IMG/VR virus record: IMGVR_UViG_3300042355_000033
Coordinates: 1 to 25,137 of that record
DNA from: a virus
Strand: one strand, 5' to 3'
DNA length: 25,137 nt
Shown here: one piece after another, positions 3,749 to 15,031 of the stretch
How positions within the stretch are numbered: position 1 is the stretch's first letter
Layout of the letters: the number at the start of each line of letters is the position of its first letter
Made by a program: the position numbers and the translations under genes
The notes under the pieces: model-generated
Seen by the model: the letters and a program-made list of their open reading frames with translations, nothing else
What the model was told of the DNA's origin: nothing
Database searches by the model: none

Positions 3749-5357
3749 CAACCCACTACAGCGTGAGGAGTTCTATCTGGACTTGATCCAGAAGTGCTTT
3801 GTGTCACGGGAGGAGCGCAAGGCTGATTACTCCGCACTTCGATCCTATTATTTGTTTGGTGCAGCGCCGGAAGAATCACCGGCGCTTTTTAACAAGATTT
3901 TCCCGCATATCGACCAGTTGACCTCGTTCCTGTATTCCGCAGAAACGACACGGTTTACCATCAACCTCGGTGCTGAAGTTAGTCCTCAAGAACATCGGAA
4001 GATTCCGGTTCTGACTAACAAGCTGAACGACGAATGGCTAAACAGCAACTGTGATCAGGTCTTCTCTACCGCCCTGACCTGGGCGCTGTGTTTCGGCACA
4101 ACCTACGTCAAGCTGATCGTCAACAACGGCATCCACCCGTACATGGTGGAACCGGCAGGTATTGGCGTACTGCGTGAGGATGTTCCGTACACTGACCGCC
4201 AAGAAGCGATAGCGCAAACCTATTACATCACCAAGTCGGAACTCTACGCCCGTCTGTACTCTCATCCCAGGCGTGATGAGATTGTGAAGCGCGTAACGTC
4301 TTCCTACCAGCCGCAGCAACTAGAAATTCCTGATGGCATTGACCGCATCATCATGTCACAGACCAACCCAACGATGACCGGCACGGTCAACTTGGACTTG
4401 TCTGGCATGAACCGCTACAAGGCGCGGGTGTCAGAAGACACGGTAGAGATGACCGAGTTGTGGGTGTGGAACGATGAAACGATGGACTACCAGGTGGTTA
4501 CTATCGCCGATCCAGACGTCATCGTCTACGACCGACCAGGTGAGCAGGTATTTTTGAAGGGTGAGTTGCCATTCATTCAACTTTGCCCTAACCCAATGTA
4601 CGATTACTACTGGGGGCAGAGCGAAGTACAGCGTTTGGTGTTCTTGCAGTCGTTGCGAAACAAACGGATGACGGAGATTCTGGACTTGCTATCTAAGCAA
4701 GTTAATCCTCCTACAGCGCTAATTGGCTTTACTGGCATCTTAGATGAGAAAAGTTTTGCGTTAAATCGGGCGGGTGGTTTGCTGGCAACCGATATGCCTA
4801 ACTCCAAAGTCGAGAAGATGGCTCCGCAAATGCCAGGTGACTTGTTCGAGGTGATCCGTGAAGTGGATGCGATGTTCGCGGAAGCGTCAGGTATTACAAG
4901 CGTACTCTCAGGACGTGGAGAAACCGGCGTCAGAAGCCAAGGTCACGCCTCCCAACTTGCCCGACTCGGCTCCTCCAGAGCAAAAAAACGTGCGCTCATC
5001 ATTGAAGATAGCCTCGAAAAAGTATCCACGCTGTTCTTAAAGCTGATTCAGGCCTATGATGACACCAAGTTGGTCGATGCAGAGGGTGTGTCATTTATCG
5101 CAGAACAGTTCACCAACAACTATGTGGTGAAGGTGGACGCTCACTCGAATAGCCCGATCTTTACTGAAGACCTGCGACAGCTTGCCTTCAATATGTTTAA
5201 GGCTGGCGCTATCGATAAGGAATCTCTGATAGATTTGCTTGAACCGCCGATGAAGCAGTTGCTGAAAGAAAAGTTGAAGGTAATGGAAGCAAAGCAGGCG
5301 CTGCAACCGCAGCCGCCGCAGCAAAGTAAACCTGACTTAAAAGCAGTGGGGGAATAA
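3735..5357 (+). CDS. Portal protein (head-tail connector)
   Basis: A 540-residue protein with the layout of podovirus-type portals, close in length to T7 gp8 (about 536). Supporting features are the N-terminal helical clip start (DYSALRSYYLFG), the wing segment ALCFGTTYVKL at about 119-129, the mid-domain WVWND...VTIADPDVIVYDRP, the FIQLCPNPMYDYYWGQSE segment before the long tunnel helices, and GITSVLSGRGETGVRS near residue 390, which is very typical of portals. The C-terminus is Gln/Pro rich and charged. The dodecameric portal sits at one capsid vertex and is the DNA channel and terminase dock. The ATG at 3735 lies inside the preceding gene and lacks a strong SD, so expression probably depends on coupling to that gene. 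Confidence 0.95.
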   Translation: MRIPSNPLQREEFYLDLIQKCFVSREERKADYSALRSYYLFGAAPEESPALFNKIFPHIDQLTSFLYSAETTRFTINLGAEVSPQEHRKIPVLTNKLNDEWLNSNCDQVFSTALTWALCFGTTYVKLIVNNGIHPYMVEPAGIGVLREDVPYTDRQEAIAQTYYITKSELYARLYSHPRRDEIVKRVTSSYQPQQLEIPDGIDRIIMSQTNPTMTGTVNLDLSGMNRYKARVSEDTVEMTELWVWNDETMDYQVVTIADPDVIVYDRPGEQVFLKGELPFIQLCPNPMYDYYWGQSEVQRLVFLQSLRNKRMTEILDLLSKQVNPPTALIGFTGILDEKSFALNRAGGLLATDMPNSKVEKMAPQMPGDLFEVIREVDAMFAEASGITSVLSGRGETGVRSQGHASQLARLGSSRAKKRALIIEDSLEKVSTLFLKLIQAYDDTKLVDAEGVSFIAEQFTNNYVVKVDAHSNSPIFTEDLRQLAFNMFKAGAIDKESLIDLLEPPMKQLLKEKLKVMEAKQALQPQPPQQSKPDLKAVGE

Positions 5358-5524
5358 TGGCTCAAGACGCTATCGCACCAAAAGCAGATCAACCAAGGGC
5401 GGGAACATCAGCGCCTATGGATGACTCGCCCCGCCAGCCAACCTTGCAATATCGGGTGCAGGGCATAAGAAGTTTCGACCGTAGCCCGTCTATGCGGACT
5501 TACGGGAGATCAGTAAGGGGATAA
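5357..5524 (+). CDS. Small hypothetical protein (55 residues) after portal
   Basis: ATG 5357 overlaps the portal TAA by one base (TAATG) and is preceded by GGGGGA at 5348-5353, so initiation is credible. The product is 55 residues, polar and proline-containing at the N-terminus (MAQDAIAPKADQPRAG) and Arg-rich at the C-terminus (GIRSFDRSP to RTYGRSVRG). No membrane segment or known motif. The strong SD, exact coupling to portal and lack of any competing ORF argue that it is real; the function is unknown. Confidence 0.6.
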   Translation: MAQDAIAPKADQPRAGTSAPMDDSPRQPTLQYRVQGIRSFDRSPSMRTYGRSVRG

Positions 5525-5543
5525 GTCTAGCTAGGAGATGAAG

Positions 5544-5585
5544 ATGTACAAGAAAATGATGCGCGGTCGCAAAACTCGTCGTTAA
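5544..5585 (+). CDS. Tiny basic peptide 1 (13 residues)
   Basis: A 13-residue ORF, MYKKMMRGRKTRR, with AGGAG at 5533-5537 six bases before the ATG. Eight of thirteen residues are Lys or Arg counting the doubled ends, giving a protamine-like charge. It is far below normal gene-calling size and would be ignored alone, but a second similar ORF with its own SD lies 73 bases downstream. A nucleic-acid-binding or leader-peptide role is possible. In-frame ATG 5538 also exists but sits too close to the SD. Confidence 0.45.
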   Translation: MYKKMMRGRKTRR

Positions 5586-5658
5586 TCACCCCTAAAAGGG
5601 TAAAAGGGTGTGGCTGCTTGCCCATGAACTAGGTGGCCGCTGCTTAATGGAGGCTGTA

Positions 5659-5700
5659 ATGGCACGCAAAGCACGCAAAGGTCGCAAGGCCTGCAAGTAA
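5659..5700 (+). CDS. Tiny basic peptide 2 (13 residues)
   Basis: A second 13-residue ORF, MARKARKGRKACK, with GGAGG at 5649-5653 five bases before ATG 5659 (an in-frame ATG at 5647 overlaps the SD and is less likely). It matches the upstream peptide at M1, K4, G8, R9 and K10 and conservatively at positions 3, 7 and 13, which suggests tandem duplication. Both stop codons continue as TAATC. Seven of its residues are basic. Unknown function; DNA condensation, capsid-associated packing peptide or translational leader are the options. Confidence 0.45.
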   Translation: MARKARKGRKACK

Positions 5701-5720: not shown

Positions 5721-5780
5721 AGGGGCGGGGAAATGAAATATACGCCCCTGCTTGACAAAAGCTATTAAAAAGCTTACTTC
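5721..5780 (+). promoter_or_regulatory. Inter-operon control region: hairpin plus TTGACA box
   Basis: Between the tiny peptides and the gene at 5807 lies the longest stretch without an ordinary ORF. AGGGGCG at 5721-5727 pairs with CGCCCCT at 5743-5749 (7 bp, 15-base loop); no U-run follows, so it is not a standard intrinsic terminator. A perfect -35-like TTGACA occurs at 5752-5757, but the best -10 at 17-base spacing (TACTTC, 5775-5780) is poor. An additional weak hairpin, CACCC 5587-5591 with GGGTG 5606-5610, lies between the two peptides. This could be a promoter for the capsid genes or an RNA processing site; confidence is low. Confidence 0.3.
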
Positions 5781-6259: not shown

Positions 6260-6445
6260 ATGGATTTATTTAAGCCACGCGGCGCTTCCGCACCTCGCCG
6301 CCCTACCGACAACAACCAGCAGAATGGTCAAATCGTTAATACTCCCCGTTTTTCGGAGTTTGGCGGTCTGAAGAACGCTGGCGCAGCAGGCAGCAAGAAC
6401 AAGATGCAAGTTCAGAAGCCTGGTGACGGTAAGCGGGTTGTTTAA
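6260..6445 (+). CDS. Small basic hypothetical protein (61 residues)
   Basis: A 61-residue polar, basic protein with no hydrophobic core. The start MDLFKPRGASAPRRP and the FSEFGGLKNAGAAG stretch are the only landmarks. AAGGAG lies at about 6249-6254 before ATG 6260. It is probably disordered and may be a minor head component or assembly factor, given its place between portal and scaffold. Not recognised. Confidence 0.7.
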   Translation: MDLFKPRGASAPRRPTDNNQQNGQIVNTPRFSEFGGLKNAGAAGSKNKMQVQKPGDGKRVV

Positions 6446-11956: not shown

Positions 11957-12502
11957 ATGCCAGTTCCAAATACATTTGCCACTGCAACGGCGTCGATACC
12001 GCTGTCGCAGTTGGATGCCAATTTTGCTACCCCTATCACGTTAGGCAATACAGCGATTCAGCTTGGTAACACGGTTACGACGCTGAACAACATGACGCTT
12101 GCTAACGTCACCATTAACAGTGGCTCTATTAGCGCAAACGTGGCAAACGCAACCACCGACAGCGTGAACGTTGCAGGCTATATGGGCTTGCCGCAGAATA
12201 GCCAAAACGGTAATTACAACGTGGTTATTGCTGATGCTGGTAAGCACATTTATCACCCAACAGGTGAGGCGGCAGCAACTTACACTTTTCCCGCAAACTC
12301 AAACGTCGCGTTTACGGTGGGTTCGGCAGTGACGATCATTAACGGCTCTGCGAACAACGTGACGATTTCTCTGACAACAGATACCCTGTACTTGTCATCG
12401 AATGGCGCAACTGGCAGCAGAACATTAACTCAGTGGGGTGTGGCAACGGCAGTCAAGATTGCTAGTACAACCTGGGTTATCTCTGGATCGAATCTCACAT
12501 GA
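11957..12502 (+). CDS. Fibre-like structural protein with shared beta module
   Basis: A 181-residue Thr/Asn/Ala/Val-rich protein. The N-terminus (ASIPLSQLDANFATPITLGN) resembles starts of phage fibre-type proteins. Residues about 27-70 (TLGNTAIQLGNT then MTLANVTINSGSISANV) match a module in the gene at 15729. The C-terminal half has YTFPANSNVAFTVGSAVTII and ends WVISGSNLT, a pattern of a beta-prism or C-terminal fibre head. GAGG lies before ATG 11957. It is followed by the glycine-rich adhesin with ATGA overlap, so the two may assemble together at the tail. Probably a tail fibre or appendage protein. Confidence 0.7.
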   Translation: MPVPNTFATATASIPLSQLDANFATPITLGNTAIQLGNTVTTLNNMTLANVTINSGSISANVANATTDSVNVAGYMGLPQNSQNGNYNVVIADAGKHIYHPTGEAAATYTFPANSNVAFTVGSAVTIINGSANNVTISLTTDTLYLSSNGATGSRTLTQWGVATAVKIASTTWVISGSNLT

Positions 12503-14178
12503 CCGGCATCCTACAAGCGCTTTTGATGGGGTATGGTGCTGCCGGAGGTGGCGGCGGTTTAACCATCATTGAAACCTTTAATGCCACTGGCACATGGACT
12601 TGCCCTGATGGTGTGACGCAGGTGGACTACCTTGTGGTTGCTGGTGGCGGCGGTGGTGGTGGAAATGTAGCTGGTGGCGGCGGCGGTGCTGGTGGATTTC
12701 GCACTGGAACTGGTTTGTCGGTTACTGCTGGAACCACTTATACGGTTACCGTTGGTGGTGGCGGTGGTGGCGCAACCACGGGGGCAAGAGGAACAACGGG
12801 TTCAGATTCCGTATTTAGCACAATTACATCTAACGGAGGTGGAGGCGGCGGTGGTTTTACGTCAACTCCAAATAATAATGGTGCTAGCGGTGGTTCTGGA
12901 GGTGGCGCTGGCATATTAAGTGGCCCTCCTTATTCTGGCGGCATAGGTGGAGCAGGAAACACGCCATCAACATCTCCCTCCCAAGGCAACAATGGTGGCA
13001 ATGGTGAGGGTTCTGCTTCTTATGGTTTTGGTGGTGGTGGAGGCGGTGCAAATGCGACAGGCGTGTCTGCTACTCCAAGCAGTGCTGGTAACGGTGGTAA
13101 CGGTACTGCATCATCAATCGGTGGATCGTCCGTCACTTATGCTGGTGGTGGCGGCGGTGGGGCAGATTCTCGCGCACCATCAACTACTGGTGGAACTGGT
13201 GGTTCTGGAGGCGGTGGCGCCGGTGGTAACGGTGTAAGTGGTCAAGTCAATGGAACTGCTGGAACGACAAATAGAGGTGGCGGTGGCGGTGGCGCTGGCT
13301 ACTTAAATAGCCCTCAAACTTTTGGCAACGGCGCTTCTGGCGGCTCTGGCATCGTCATCATTAAGTACACAACACCAGCTAACCGCATCCTTACCTTCAA
13401 AGGCTCATCTCAATGGACTTGTCCAACAGGTGTGACCAGCGTTGATTATCTGGTCGTGGCTGGCGGTGGTGGGGCTGGCGGTTCAAGCTCAAGCACTCAA
13501 GCAGGTGGTGGCGGTGGCGCTGGCGGATTTAGAACTGGTACAGGATTATCAGTATCTGCTGGAACGGCTTATACGATCACTGTTGGCGCAGGAGGCGCAG
13601 GGCTTGCTGCGGGAACGACCGATCCTGGGAATCCAGGGTCAAGCTCTACGTTCTCAACGATAACGTCAGCCGGTGGCGGTTTTGGTGCTTATGCTGCTGG
13701 CAATGGCGGTTCGGGCGGTTCTGGCGGCGGCGGCGCAGCAGGTTCTAGTGGCTCTGGTAATGGCGGCGTAGGAAACACGCCATCTACAAGCCCCTCACAA
13801 GGTAGCAGTGGTGGAGATGGATTAGGAAGTGCTAGCGGCGGGTGCGCTGGCGGTGGTGGTGGGGCTTCTGCTGCTGGGGGTGATGCGTCATCGACCCCGC
13901 GTTCAGGTGGAGCAGGCGGCGCTGGTACGGCGTCTTCAATTAGTGGCGCATCTGTTACATACGCTGGTGGTGGAGGCGGCGGAAATGCACATACAACTGG
14001 CTCTATAGCCCCAGGCGGTGCTGGTGGGGGCGGGAATGGCGGTCAAGATGCGTCTCCAGCAACAGCGCCAACACCAGGCACAGCAAATACAGGTGGCGGT
14101 GGCGGCGGAGGTGCGGCTAGTGGGTTTGCTTCTGGATCAGGCGGCTCGGGTATTGTGATTATTAAACTCAACTCATAA
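12499..14178 (+). CDS. Glycine-rich tail adhesin with two tandem domains
   Basis: A 559-residue protein with very many runs of 4-7 glycines. It contains two copies of one domain: residues about 23-290 and 298-557. Each begins with WTCP-x-GVT-x-VDYLVVAGGGG, then GGAGGFRTGTGLSV and AGTxYTxTVG, then Gly-rich stretches including NTPSTSPSQG and SVTYAGGGGGG, and ends SGGSGIVIIK. This fits the glycine-rich domain found in phage adhesins, where glycine runs form packed polyglycine type II helices and loop residues make receptor contacts (known for the gp38 adhesin of Salmonella phage S16). It is likely part of host recognition. There is no strong SD; it overlaps the previous gene by ATGA. Confidence 0.85.
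   Translation: MTGILQALLMGYGAAGGGGGLTIIETFNATGTWTCPDGVTQVDYLVVAGGGGGGGNVAGGGGGAGGFRTGTGLSVTAGTTYTVTVGGGGGGATTGARGTTGSDSVFSTITSNGGGGGGGFTSTPNNNGASGGSGGGAGILSGPPYSGGIGGAGNTPSTSPSQGNNGGNGEGSASYGFGGGGGGANATGVSATPSSAGNGGNGTASSIGGSSVTYAGGGGGGADSRAPSTTGGTGGSGGGGAGGNGVSGQVNGTAGTTNRGGGGGGAGYLNSPQTFGNGASGGSGIVIIKYTTPANRILTFKGSSQWTCPTGVTSVDYLVVAGGGGAGGSSSSTQAGGGGGAGGFRTGTGLSVSAGTAYTITVGAGGAGLAAGTTDPGNPGSSSTFSTITSAGGGFGAYAAGNGGSGGSGGGGAAGSSGSGNGGVGNTPSTSPSQGSSGGDGLGSASGGCAGGGGGASAAGGDASSTPRSGGAGGAGTASSISGASVTYAGGGGGGNAHTTGSIAPGGAGGGGNGGQDASPATAPTPGTANTGGGGGGGAASGFASGSGGSGIVIIKLNS
12565..14175 (+). repeat. Tandem duplication of the glycine-rich domain
   Basis: Unit 1 is about 12565-13371 and unit 2 about 13390-14175 within the adhesin gene. 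The protein copies align over most of their length with conserved anchors WTCP, FRTGTGL, FSTITS, GNTPSTSPSQG, ASSI-x-G-x-SVTYAGGGG and GSGIVIIK. Codons for identical residues differ in many places, so the copies are old rather than fresh repeats. The most different parts are the short loops between the glycine runs. Confidence 0.85.
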
Positions 14179-14180
14179 CT

Positions 14181-14432
14181 ATGAAAAAAATATACCGTTT
14201 CTACGGCATCGACGTTGCAATGCAAATGTTGCGTCCTGGCGCTAAATGGGAAATCAGCAACAACGTCTTTACTCGTTGGGATGATCCTAGACCTTGCCCA
14301 AGCATGGAAGAAGTCTACTGGGTGATGGAAAAGATTAAAGAGTTTGAGGAAAGCATTCCAACAATTTGGTTGACTGAACAATTAGAGCAGCAGAAGCAAG
14401 ACGAAGAAGAACTAGAAAAGGCACTCGCATGA
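14181..14432 (+). CDS. Conserved phage hypothetical protein (83 residues)
   Basis: An 83-residue protein with MKKIYRFYGIDVAMQMLRPG at the start and FTRWDDPRPCPSMEEV in the middle, followed by an acidic helix. Similar small proteins are frequent next to fibre genes in uncultured aquatic phages, as I recall; no function is assigned. ATG 14181 has no visible SD, and it starts two bases after the adhesin stop, so it probably relies on reinitiation. It overlaps the oxygenase gene by four bases. A fibre assembly or chaperone role is possible from position only. Confidence 0.75.
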   Translation: MKKIYRFYGIDVAMQMLRPGAKWEISNNVFTRWDDPRPCPSMEEVYWVMEKIKEFEESIPTIWLTEQLEQQKQDEEELEKALA

Positions 14433-15031
14433 ATATGCACAACCTATTTCCTACGCCAATCGGTATGTTCGACTTAGACCGAGAATTTACTGATGAGGAA
14501 TTGTTGTTTGTTCGCGGTCAGGAAACTAGAGCGAATGAAGGTAATACCACTAGCGTTAATAACTTTGTATTGCGCGATCCGACGATGACTTCTCTGCGGG
14601 ATTGGGTAGAGGGTTGCGTTGCTGAATACTTTAAGGCTACTAGCGATCCAAAGCACGACGTTGATTTGAGAATTACTCAGTCTTGGTTTAACTATTCAGA
14701 GCAAGGGCAGTGGCATCACAAACACGCTCATCCAAACAGTTTTGTATCAGGCGTGTTTTATTTGAATACCAACCCTGATGACCGTATTTACTTTTATCGT
14801 TCAGGCTGGCAACAAATAAAGTTTCCACCTGAAAACTGGAATTTGTATAACTCTGAATCGTGGTGGTTTGAGGCGGTAAAAGGGCGGCTAATTTTATTTC
14901 CATCATCACTTGAGCATAACGTGCCGACTGTTAAAGGTGAAGATGTTCGCATTAGCATGAGTTTTAACACCTTCCCTGTTGGCATTGTTGGGGATGAGAT
15001 GTCGTTGACTGGTTTGAAATTGGAGGCTTGA
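14429..15031 (+). CDS. 2OG-Fe(II) oxygenase family protein
   Basis: A 200-residue protein of the putative 2OG-Fe(II) oxygenase group common in aquatic phages, which couple 2-oxoglutarate and O2 to hydroxylation of a substrate. Landmarks are NLFPTPIG at residues 5-12, the HHKHAHPNSFVSGVFYL segment at 96-112 with candidate iron ligands H99 and H101, FPSSLEHNVP at 157-166 with the distal H163, and R174 in EDVRISMSFN as the probable 2-oxoglutarate anchor. The core motifs look intact, so activity is plausible. The substrate is unknown; its neighbours are fibre genes. It overlaps the upstream gene by ATGA and ends one base before the next ATG. Confidence 0.87.
   Translation: MNMHNLFPTPIGMFDLDREFTDEELLFVRGQETRANEGNTTSVNNFVLRDPTMTSLRDWVEGCVAEYFKATSDPKHDVDLRITQSWFNYSEQGQWHHKHAHPNSFVSGVFYLNTNPDDRIYFYRSGWQQIKFPPENWNLYNSESWWFEAVKGRLILFPSSLEHNVPTVKGEDVRISMSFNTFPVGIVGDEMSLTGLKLEA

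Follow-up and report, generated by a model that had tools for sequence, protein, structure and literature searches.

Lysine- and arginine-rich peptides of 9–15 residues, and a predicted RNA pseudoknot, beside the portal gene of podovirus-like phages

Downstream of its portal gene, the viral record IMGVR_UViG_3300042355_000033 of IMG/VR (the whole stretch of 25,137 nucleotides analysed here is hereafter called the window) contains two tandem open reading frames of 13 codons, each encoding a highly basic peptide. Two questions are raised by this locus: whether such short frames are genes at all, and what peptides of this kind might do. The upstream frame, pep1 (positions 5544–5585), encodes MYKKMMRGRKTRR and follows the Shine-Dalgarno (SD) sequence AGGAG (5533–5537) with a 6-nt spacer, while the downstream frame, pep2 (5659–5700), encodes MARKARKGRKACK and follows GGAGG (5649–5653) with a 5-nt spacer, all on the plus strand. 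Both frames and their SDs are thus as given in the original prediction, which was also correct in that the peptides have M1, K4, G8, R9 and K10 in common. At 13 residues, the net charge is +6.5. Across the family the consensus is MYKKMKRGRKTRR for pep1, the upstream member in two-peptide intervals, and MARK[AGS]RKGRK[AGS]RK for pep2; the Cys at residue 12 of the window pep2 is atypical, since 51 of the 54 distinct sequences of 13 codons have Arg there.

The window includes terminase, portal and major head protein (MCP) genes, in the order terL, p130, p162, portal, p55, pep1, pep2, p147, p61, p176, MCP (pN denoting a protein of N residues). The portal matches the SU10_portal family (PF23899; 42.4 bits, cut-off 30), and the MCP is a tailed-phage major head protein of phrog_9953. 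With the SU10-like phages (Kuravirus and relatives), the window has in common this portal family and the order terminase, portal, scaffold, MCP; in SU10, however, the gap between the portal and the gene that follows is only 9 nt, leaving no room for the peptides, and the SU10-like genome is 77 kb long, against ∼35 kb in the named relatives of the window. The peptide carriers are a widespread, mostly uncultured group of podovirus-like tailed phages. Four contigs of the group (L199, L200, L201 and L202) were binned in bacterial genome assemblies, two from betaproteobacteria, one from a Balneolaceae and one from an alphaproteobacterium, a weak basis for host assignment. Further along the window, a Gly-rich protein of 559 residues with two similar halves is encoded in the tail region (12499–14178), and a 200-residue frame (14429–15031) may be a phage protein of the 2-oxoglutarate/Fe(II) oxygenase-like type, which its sequence recalls.

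Directly upstream of pep1 and overlapping the portal stop lies p55 (5357–5524, plus strand), a small basic protein (pI 10.8) with the sequence pattern DQPR ... LQYRV ... R, matched by tblastn in 145 loci and retained in loci that have neither pep1 nor pep2. It probably belongs to the peptide module. Where pep1 is missing, the C-terminus of p55 is often basic (KSRR, SKR), and pep1 may for that reason have arisen from, or merged with, the p55 tail. A second small basic protein, the conserved p61 (6260–6445; 61 residues, pI 11.0), is encoded between p147 and the scaffold-like p176. No Pfam or PHROGs family was found for p55, p147 or p61, and peptides under 20 residues are outside the reach of such libraries. 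Structure prediction of the MCP (pLDDT 30.4) gave no structural clue from the head.

Relatives were gathered by portal searches, by an MCP search of bacterial and archaeal genome contigs, from named phage records, and with a degenerate MARKxRKGRK DNA pattern, yielding 231 distinct portal-to-p147 intervals. Micro-ORFs were defined as frames of 8–25 codons with an ATG or GTG start, an SD and at least 40% Lys/Arg. At least one is present in 208 of the 231 intervals (two in 147, one in 55 and three in 6), with sizes of 9–15 residues, against 0.65% of shuffled intervals, none of which had two or more, and 0/231 on the reverse strand. The original prediction had proposed comparing this interval in related phages for conserved frames with a third-position bias, and this is what the relatives display, at dN/dS values of 0.15–0.25: in loci found without the peptide pattern, pep2 gives 0.25 for 13-mers and 0.18 for 12-mers, and in portal-search loci pep1 gives 0.145, compared to 1.9–2.0 in its two other frames (1.9–13 for the peptide sequences as a whole). 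The third codon position is the most variable, and lengths differ among the 9–15 codons often by one RKx unit more or fewer, always in frame.

The translation signals are conserved as well. Of the intervals obtained independently of the peptide pattern, 100 hold at least two peptides; AGGAG is their commonest pep1 SD (63/100), and 72/100 have a 6-nt spacer. SD spacers cluster at 5–8 nt, and the pep2 spacer is of this size in all 142 loci counted. The continuation of both stops as TAATC, pointed out by the original prediction, holds in the window and is only partly conserved in relatives, where pep2 ends in TAATC in 110/208 and TAATT in 57/208 loci, and pep1 mostly in TAATT, TAATC or TAAGN.

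Chance frames are ruled out by the shuffles, the reverse strand, the dN/dS of shifted frames and the portal tree, on which peptide presence changes twice among 69 representatives (this is a quick tree, whose deep branches are long and uncertain). Ascertainment through the pep2 pattern was addressed by repeating the statistics with only the portal- and MCP-search loci and phage records; 142 of the 165 loci found without the peptide pattern are positive. Conversely, when 2.9 million viral contigs were searched with the pep2 DNA pattern, all 115 loci kept, among the matches listed, carry the neighbourhood genes of this phage group, and a general basic-peptide pattern returned one locus, already in the set. 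Purifying selection on the amino acids, in-frame length changes, and conserved starts, stops and SDs are features of protein genes, and sequence comparison strongly supports pep1 and pep2 as real protein-coding genes.

In the core group, pep2 reads M-A-(R-K-x)n, where x is a small residue, with four RK units in the 13-mers and three in the 10-mers. Arg and Lys rarely swap: in a set of 54 sequences that includes pattern-selected loci, Arg 3, 6 and 9 and Lys 7 and 10 are each present in 54/54. Pep1, unlike pep2, exchanges the two residues. Five loci (L092, L118, L125, L137 and L159) have a third peptide, whose resemblance to pep2 suggests a local duplication. Conservation extends far: L147 encodes MARKHRKGRK despite identities of 27% in the portal and 37% in the MCP, and L133 (portal 43% identity) encodes MARKSRKGRKARR and keeps pep2. 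The L217 group (portal ∼51% to the named relatives) encodes MARRKRRGRKSKR-like peptides and lacks p55. Phages with remotely related MCPs (Mx8, Mx9, BUCT555, ppBjS10J-1, MW202803, Mwe-JY13 and the TM7 phage) yielded no convincing similar peptide.

Broken frames, named in the original prediction as evidence against the genes, occur as isolated start losses (a changed pep1 start in L037 and a pep2 start replaced by ATA in L346), beside one clade without the two peptides. This clade is supported on the portal tree (L201, L223, L233, L250, L254, L271) and keeps p55 only; L202 is also without peptides. The function of the peptides would thus be dispensable, or otherwise supplied, in these phages. 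Two members, L250 and L254, have longer basic frames after p55 (MGGYGKAKMPMKRVTPRRTQRS; MYGKMPKPMKKPMKRDTKRK), which are possible intermediates.

Two elements missed by the original prediction bear on the function of the peptides. The first is a predicted H-type RNA pseudoknot between pep1 and the SD of pep2 (5604–5644, plus strand), recognised by covariation and by a model match. Its stem S1 pairs 5606–5608 with 5621–5623, and S2 pairs 5612–5619 with 5631–5638, extended by a pair of 5620 with 5629 past a bulged U5630. S1 occurs as GGG/CCC and in variants such as AUGG/CCAU, CCGG/CCGG and GAGG/CCUC; S2 consists of GGCUG[C/A/G].. and its complement, and the pair past the bulge swaps between U-A, C-G and G-C. 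In a 40-sequence MAFFT alignment made without use of the structure, 92.1% of paired cells can pair, against 36–63% in slid controls; two-sided changes number 61, against at most 9 when slid and a mean of 16 when shuffled; and the covariation score is 0.314, against at most 0.126 when slid. The structure was read by eye from the same sequences, which makes the slid control somewhat favourable to it, yet the count of two-sided changes in this alignment is hard to explain otherwise than by a pseudoknot. The minimum-energy folding of the region is no more stable than that of shuffles (z 0.3), so the case for the pseudoknot rests on covariation.

A covariance model finds the pseudoknot in the window at 51.4 bits (E 2.9e-12), as the only convincing site, and once in each of the other positive loci tested, with no second convincing site. 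Its end lies 18–23 nt before the pep2 AUG in ∼160 of 169 loci. A known RNA family was ruled out, Rfam giving no match in the window at E up to 5 and only chance-level matches in L083. By comparison of the relatives, this appears to be a new, undescribed RNA element tied to one microprotein. It is kept in L133, while the L217 group and other distant relatives carry a peptide without it, indicating that the pseudoknot is not essential to the peptide. A short frame inside it (MAAFP..) was rejected as a gene, since its start codon and length vary while the base pairs covary; pseudoknot-driven readthrough or frameshifting at pep1 was rejected because the two are separated by a stem-loop and the pseudoknot is retained in loci that lack pep1.

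Short Arg/Lys-rich peptides often bind RNA. With peptides of this composition and a covarying pseudoknot directly upstream of pep2, it is conceivable, if somewhat doubtful, that they act purely as RNA-binding regulators, binding the pseudoknot or other mRNA and controlling late-gene translation without any role in the head. The model for such an arrangement is phage T4, where the product of gene 32, downstream, binds an operator pseudoknot and represses its own translation (PMC535899). As in the operators of T4 and RB69 (PMC535899), the pseudoknot found here lies 5' of the SD of a gene whose product binds nucleic acid, a presumed property in the case of pep2, and by this analogy its position suggests that pep2 may regulate itself through it. 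The gene 32 operator differs in having more than 40 unstructured nt with UUAAA repeats before the AUG, whereas here there are ∼20 nt, no UUAAA and another sequence. Against purely RNA-binding regulators, one pseudoknot per positive locus tested makes no visible regulon, pep1 has no such element, and the peptides of distant relatives do without it.

The second element is a TTGACA promoter box (5752–5757, plus strand), downstream of both peptides and before p147 and the capsid-side genes. In 206/231 intervals, against 20/231 shuffled, TTGAC is found ∼53 nt upstream of where p147 starts, and in 183/208 loci it follows the last peptide and precedes the capsid-side genes. Directly before it in the window is a terminator-like GGGGCG/CGCCCC hairpin (5722–5748, plus strand) with no clear T-run, and 177/206 relatives have a hairpin of 5 bp or more no further than 50 nt upstream of TTGAC. 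Members of the peptide-less clade (L223, L227, L246, L252, L265 and relatives) have, after p55, a perfect intrinsic terminator, with a TTGACG box immediately next to its T-run. No complete sigma-70 promoter was called when the window was scanned with a strict consensus, and the promoter-box call therefore rests on conservation. With this arrangement, the peptides appear to be the last genes of the terminase-portal unit and not the first of the capsid unit.

The box thus argues against the peptides being leaders of the capsid genes, as the original prediction had proposed among other roles. Such leader or attenuator peptides would control the downstream p147, p61, p176 and MCP, and the locus does offer two short frames and RNA structures at the right place: a stem-loop (ACCC/GGGT, 5588–5601, plus strand) lies just past the pep1 stop, a stem of 4 bp or more starts no more than 8 nt past that stop in 93% of distinct loci (22% when shuffled), and stem-loops often follow each peptide stop. 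Read-through transcription past the box may also occur. However, the terminator of the peptide-less clade occupies this same place, L133 (a locus on the reverse strand) has more than 1 kb of extra frames inserted between pep2 and p147, and conservation reaches the amino acids rather than codons or RNA alone. Control of the capsid genes by leader peptides is accordingly disfavoured, and I regard it as improbable.

The best reading, from sequence comparison, is that pep1 and pep2 form one family of Lys/Arg microproteins of 9–15 residues whose genes come last (3') in the terminase-portal transcription unit. Comparison shows that the translated peptides are under selection, that their SDs and location are conserved, and that a pseudoknot is present. 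Selection on the peptide, the fixed place by the packaging genes and the charge of +6.5 together point to nucleic-acid binding; composition suggests the binding itself, and genomic place and conservation suggest DNA and the head as the site of action. With evenly balanced confidence, I propose that these are nucleic-acid-binding microproteins, acting most likely on phage DNA inside or close to the head, with pep2 translation probably gated by the pseudoknot. That the head or the packaging machine is the likeliest place of action is a judgement held about as firmly as it is doubted. The peptides would be made late, together with the terminase-portal genes, and would be "micro-protamines", nucleic-acid binders whose foremost target is the phage DNA in the head or next to it; the Arg-Lys-small triplets of pep2 may lie extended along the DNA, and the pseudoknot may gate pep2 translation, perhaps via the peptide itself.

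Several viruses provide precedents. The J proteins of the Microviridae (phiX174 J and relatives) are small and highly basic, bind DNA in the head, and are encoded in the structural region. The original prediction had likened the peptides to these, and the composition, extreme conservation and fixed place by the portal fit such a packing role, while homology to J does not hold: J proteins have ∼24–40 residues and an aromatic, capsid-binding C-terminus and belong to ssDNA phages, whereas the peptides have 9–15 residues, no aromatic tail, and belong to dsDNA tailed phages. Judged by the sequence features of J, they are not J homologues. The adenovirus core peptide mu is likewise very short, Arg-rich and associated with viral DNA; it is cut from a precursor by a viral protease, whereas the peptides here would be direct translation products. 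The T4 internal proteins IPI–III are basic and packed in the head with DNA, and differ in being ∼10 kDa, cleaved by the prohead protease and unrelated in sequence.

As a counterpoint to DNA, RNA or ribosomes would be fitting targets for short basic peptides too. Some ribosomal proteins, such as eL41 and bTHX, are themselves very short and basic, and small, highly basic peptides with strong SDs could, on this precedent, be directed at the host late in infection, binding ribosome, nucleoid or membrane. I consider this unlikely, given that a fixed place between portal and p147 at 27–100% portal identity and such wide conservation are unusual for host-takeover genes, and that the peptides have no hydrophobic face. 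Binding to protein rather than DNA is a further alternative: the portal gene adjoins, and portal, p147, p176 and MCP are all acidic, so basic peptides might act on acidic head proteins as co-factors of portal, terminase or scaffold; the original prediction had itself named a scaffold-capsid co-factor as one candidate role. This is very improbable, acidity leaving unexplained the strict Arg-Lys-small order of the core-group pep2.

The peptide genes are absent from current annotation. In two named relatives, MW202753 and MW202825, they are unannotated, and minus-strand hypothetical CDSs lie across them (4740–5038 in MW202753.1, L083; 6779–7039 in MW202825.1, L082), which are probably false calls. 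The peptide strings tried were not found printed in the papers searched; the large catalogue that Fremin et al. (2022) published on small genes of phages may list them, without function.

Genes of 9–15 codons, far under the limits of gene callers, can thus persist under strict selection across very diverged phages, and with these peptides the idea that dsDNA phages use minimal nucleic-acid-binding peptides becomes testable. More tentatively, RKx-triplet peptides may be packaged with, or loaded onto, the genome as a micro-protamine system, one of them setting its own dose via the pseudoknot ∼20 nt upstream. If true, these directly translated peptides of 10–15 residues would count among the smallest known phage proteins that are both conserved and functional.
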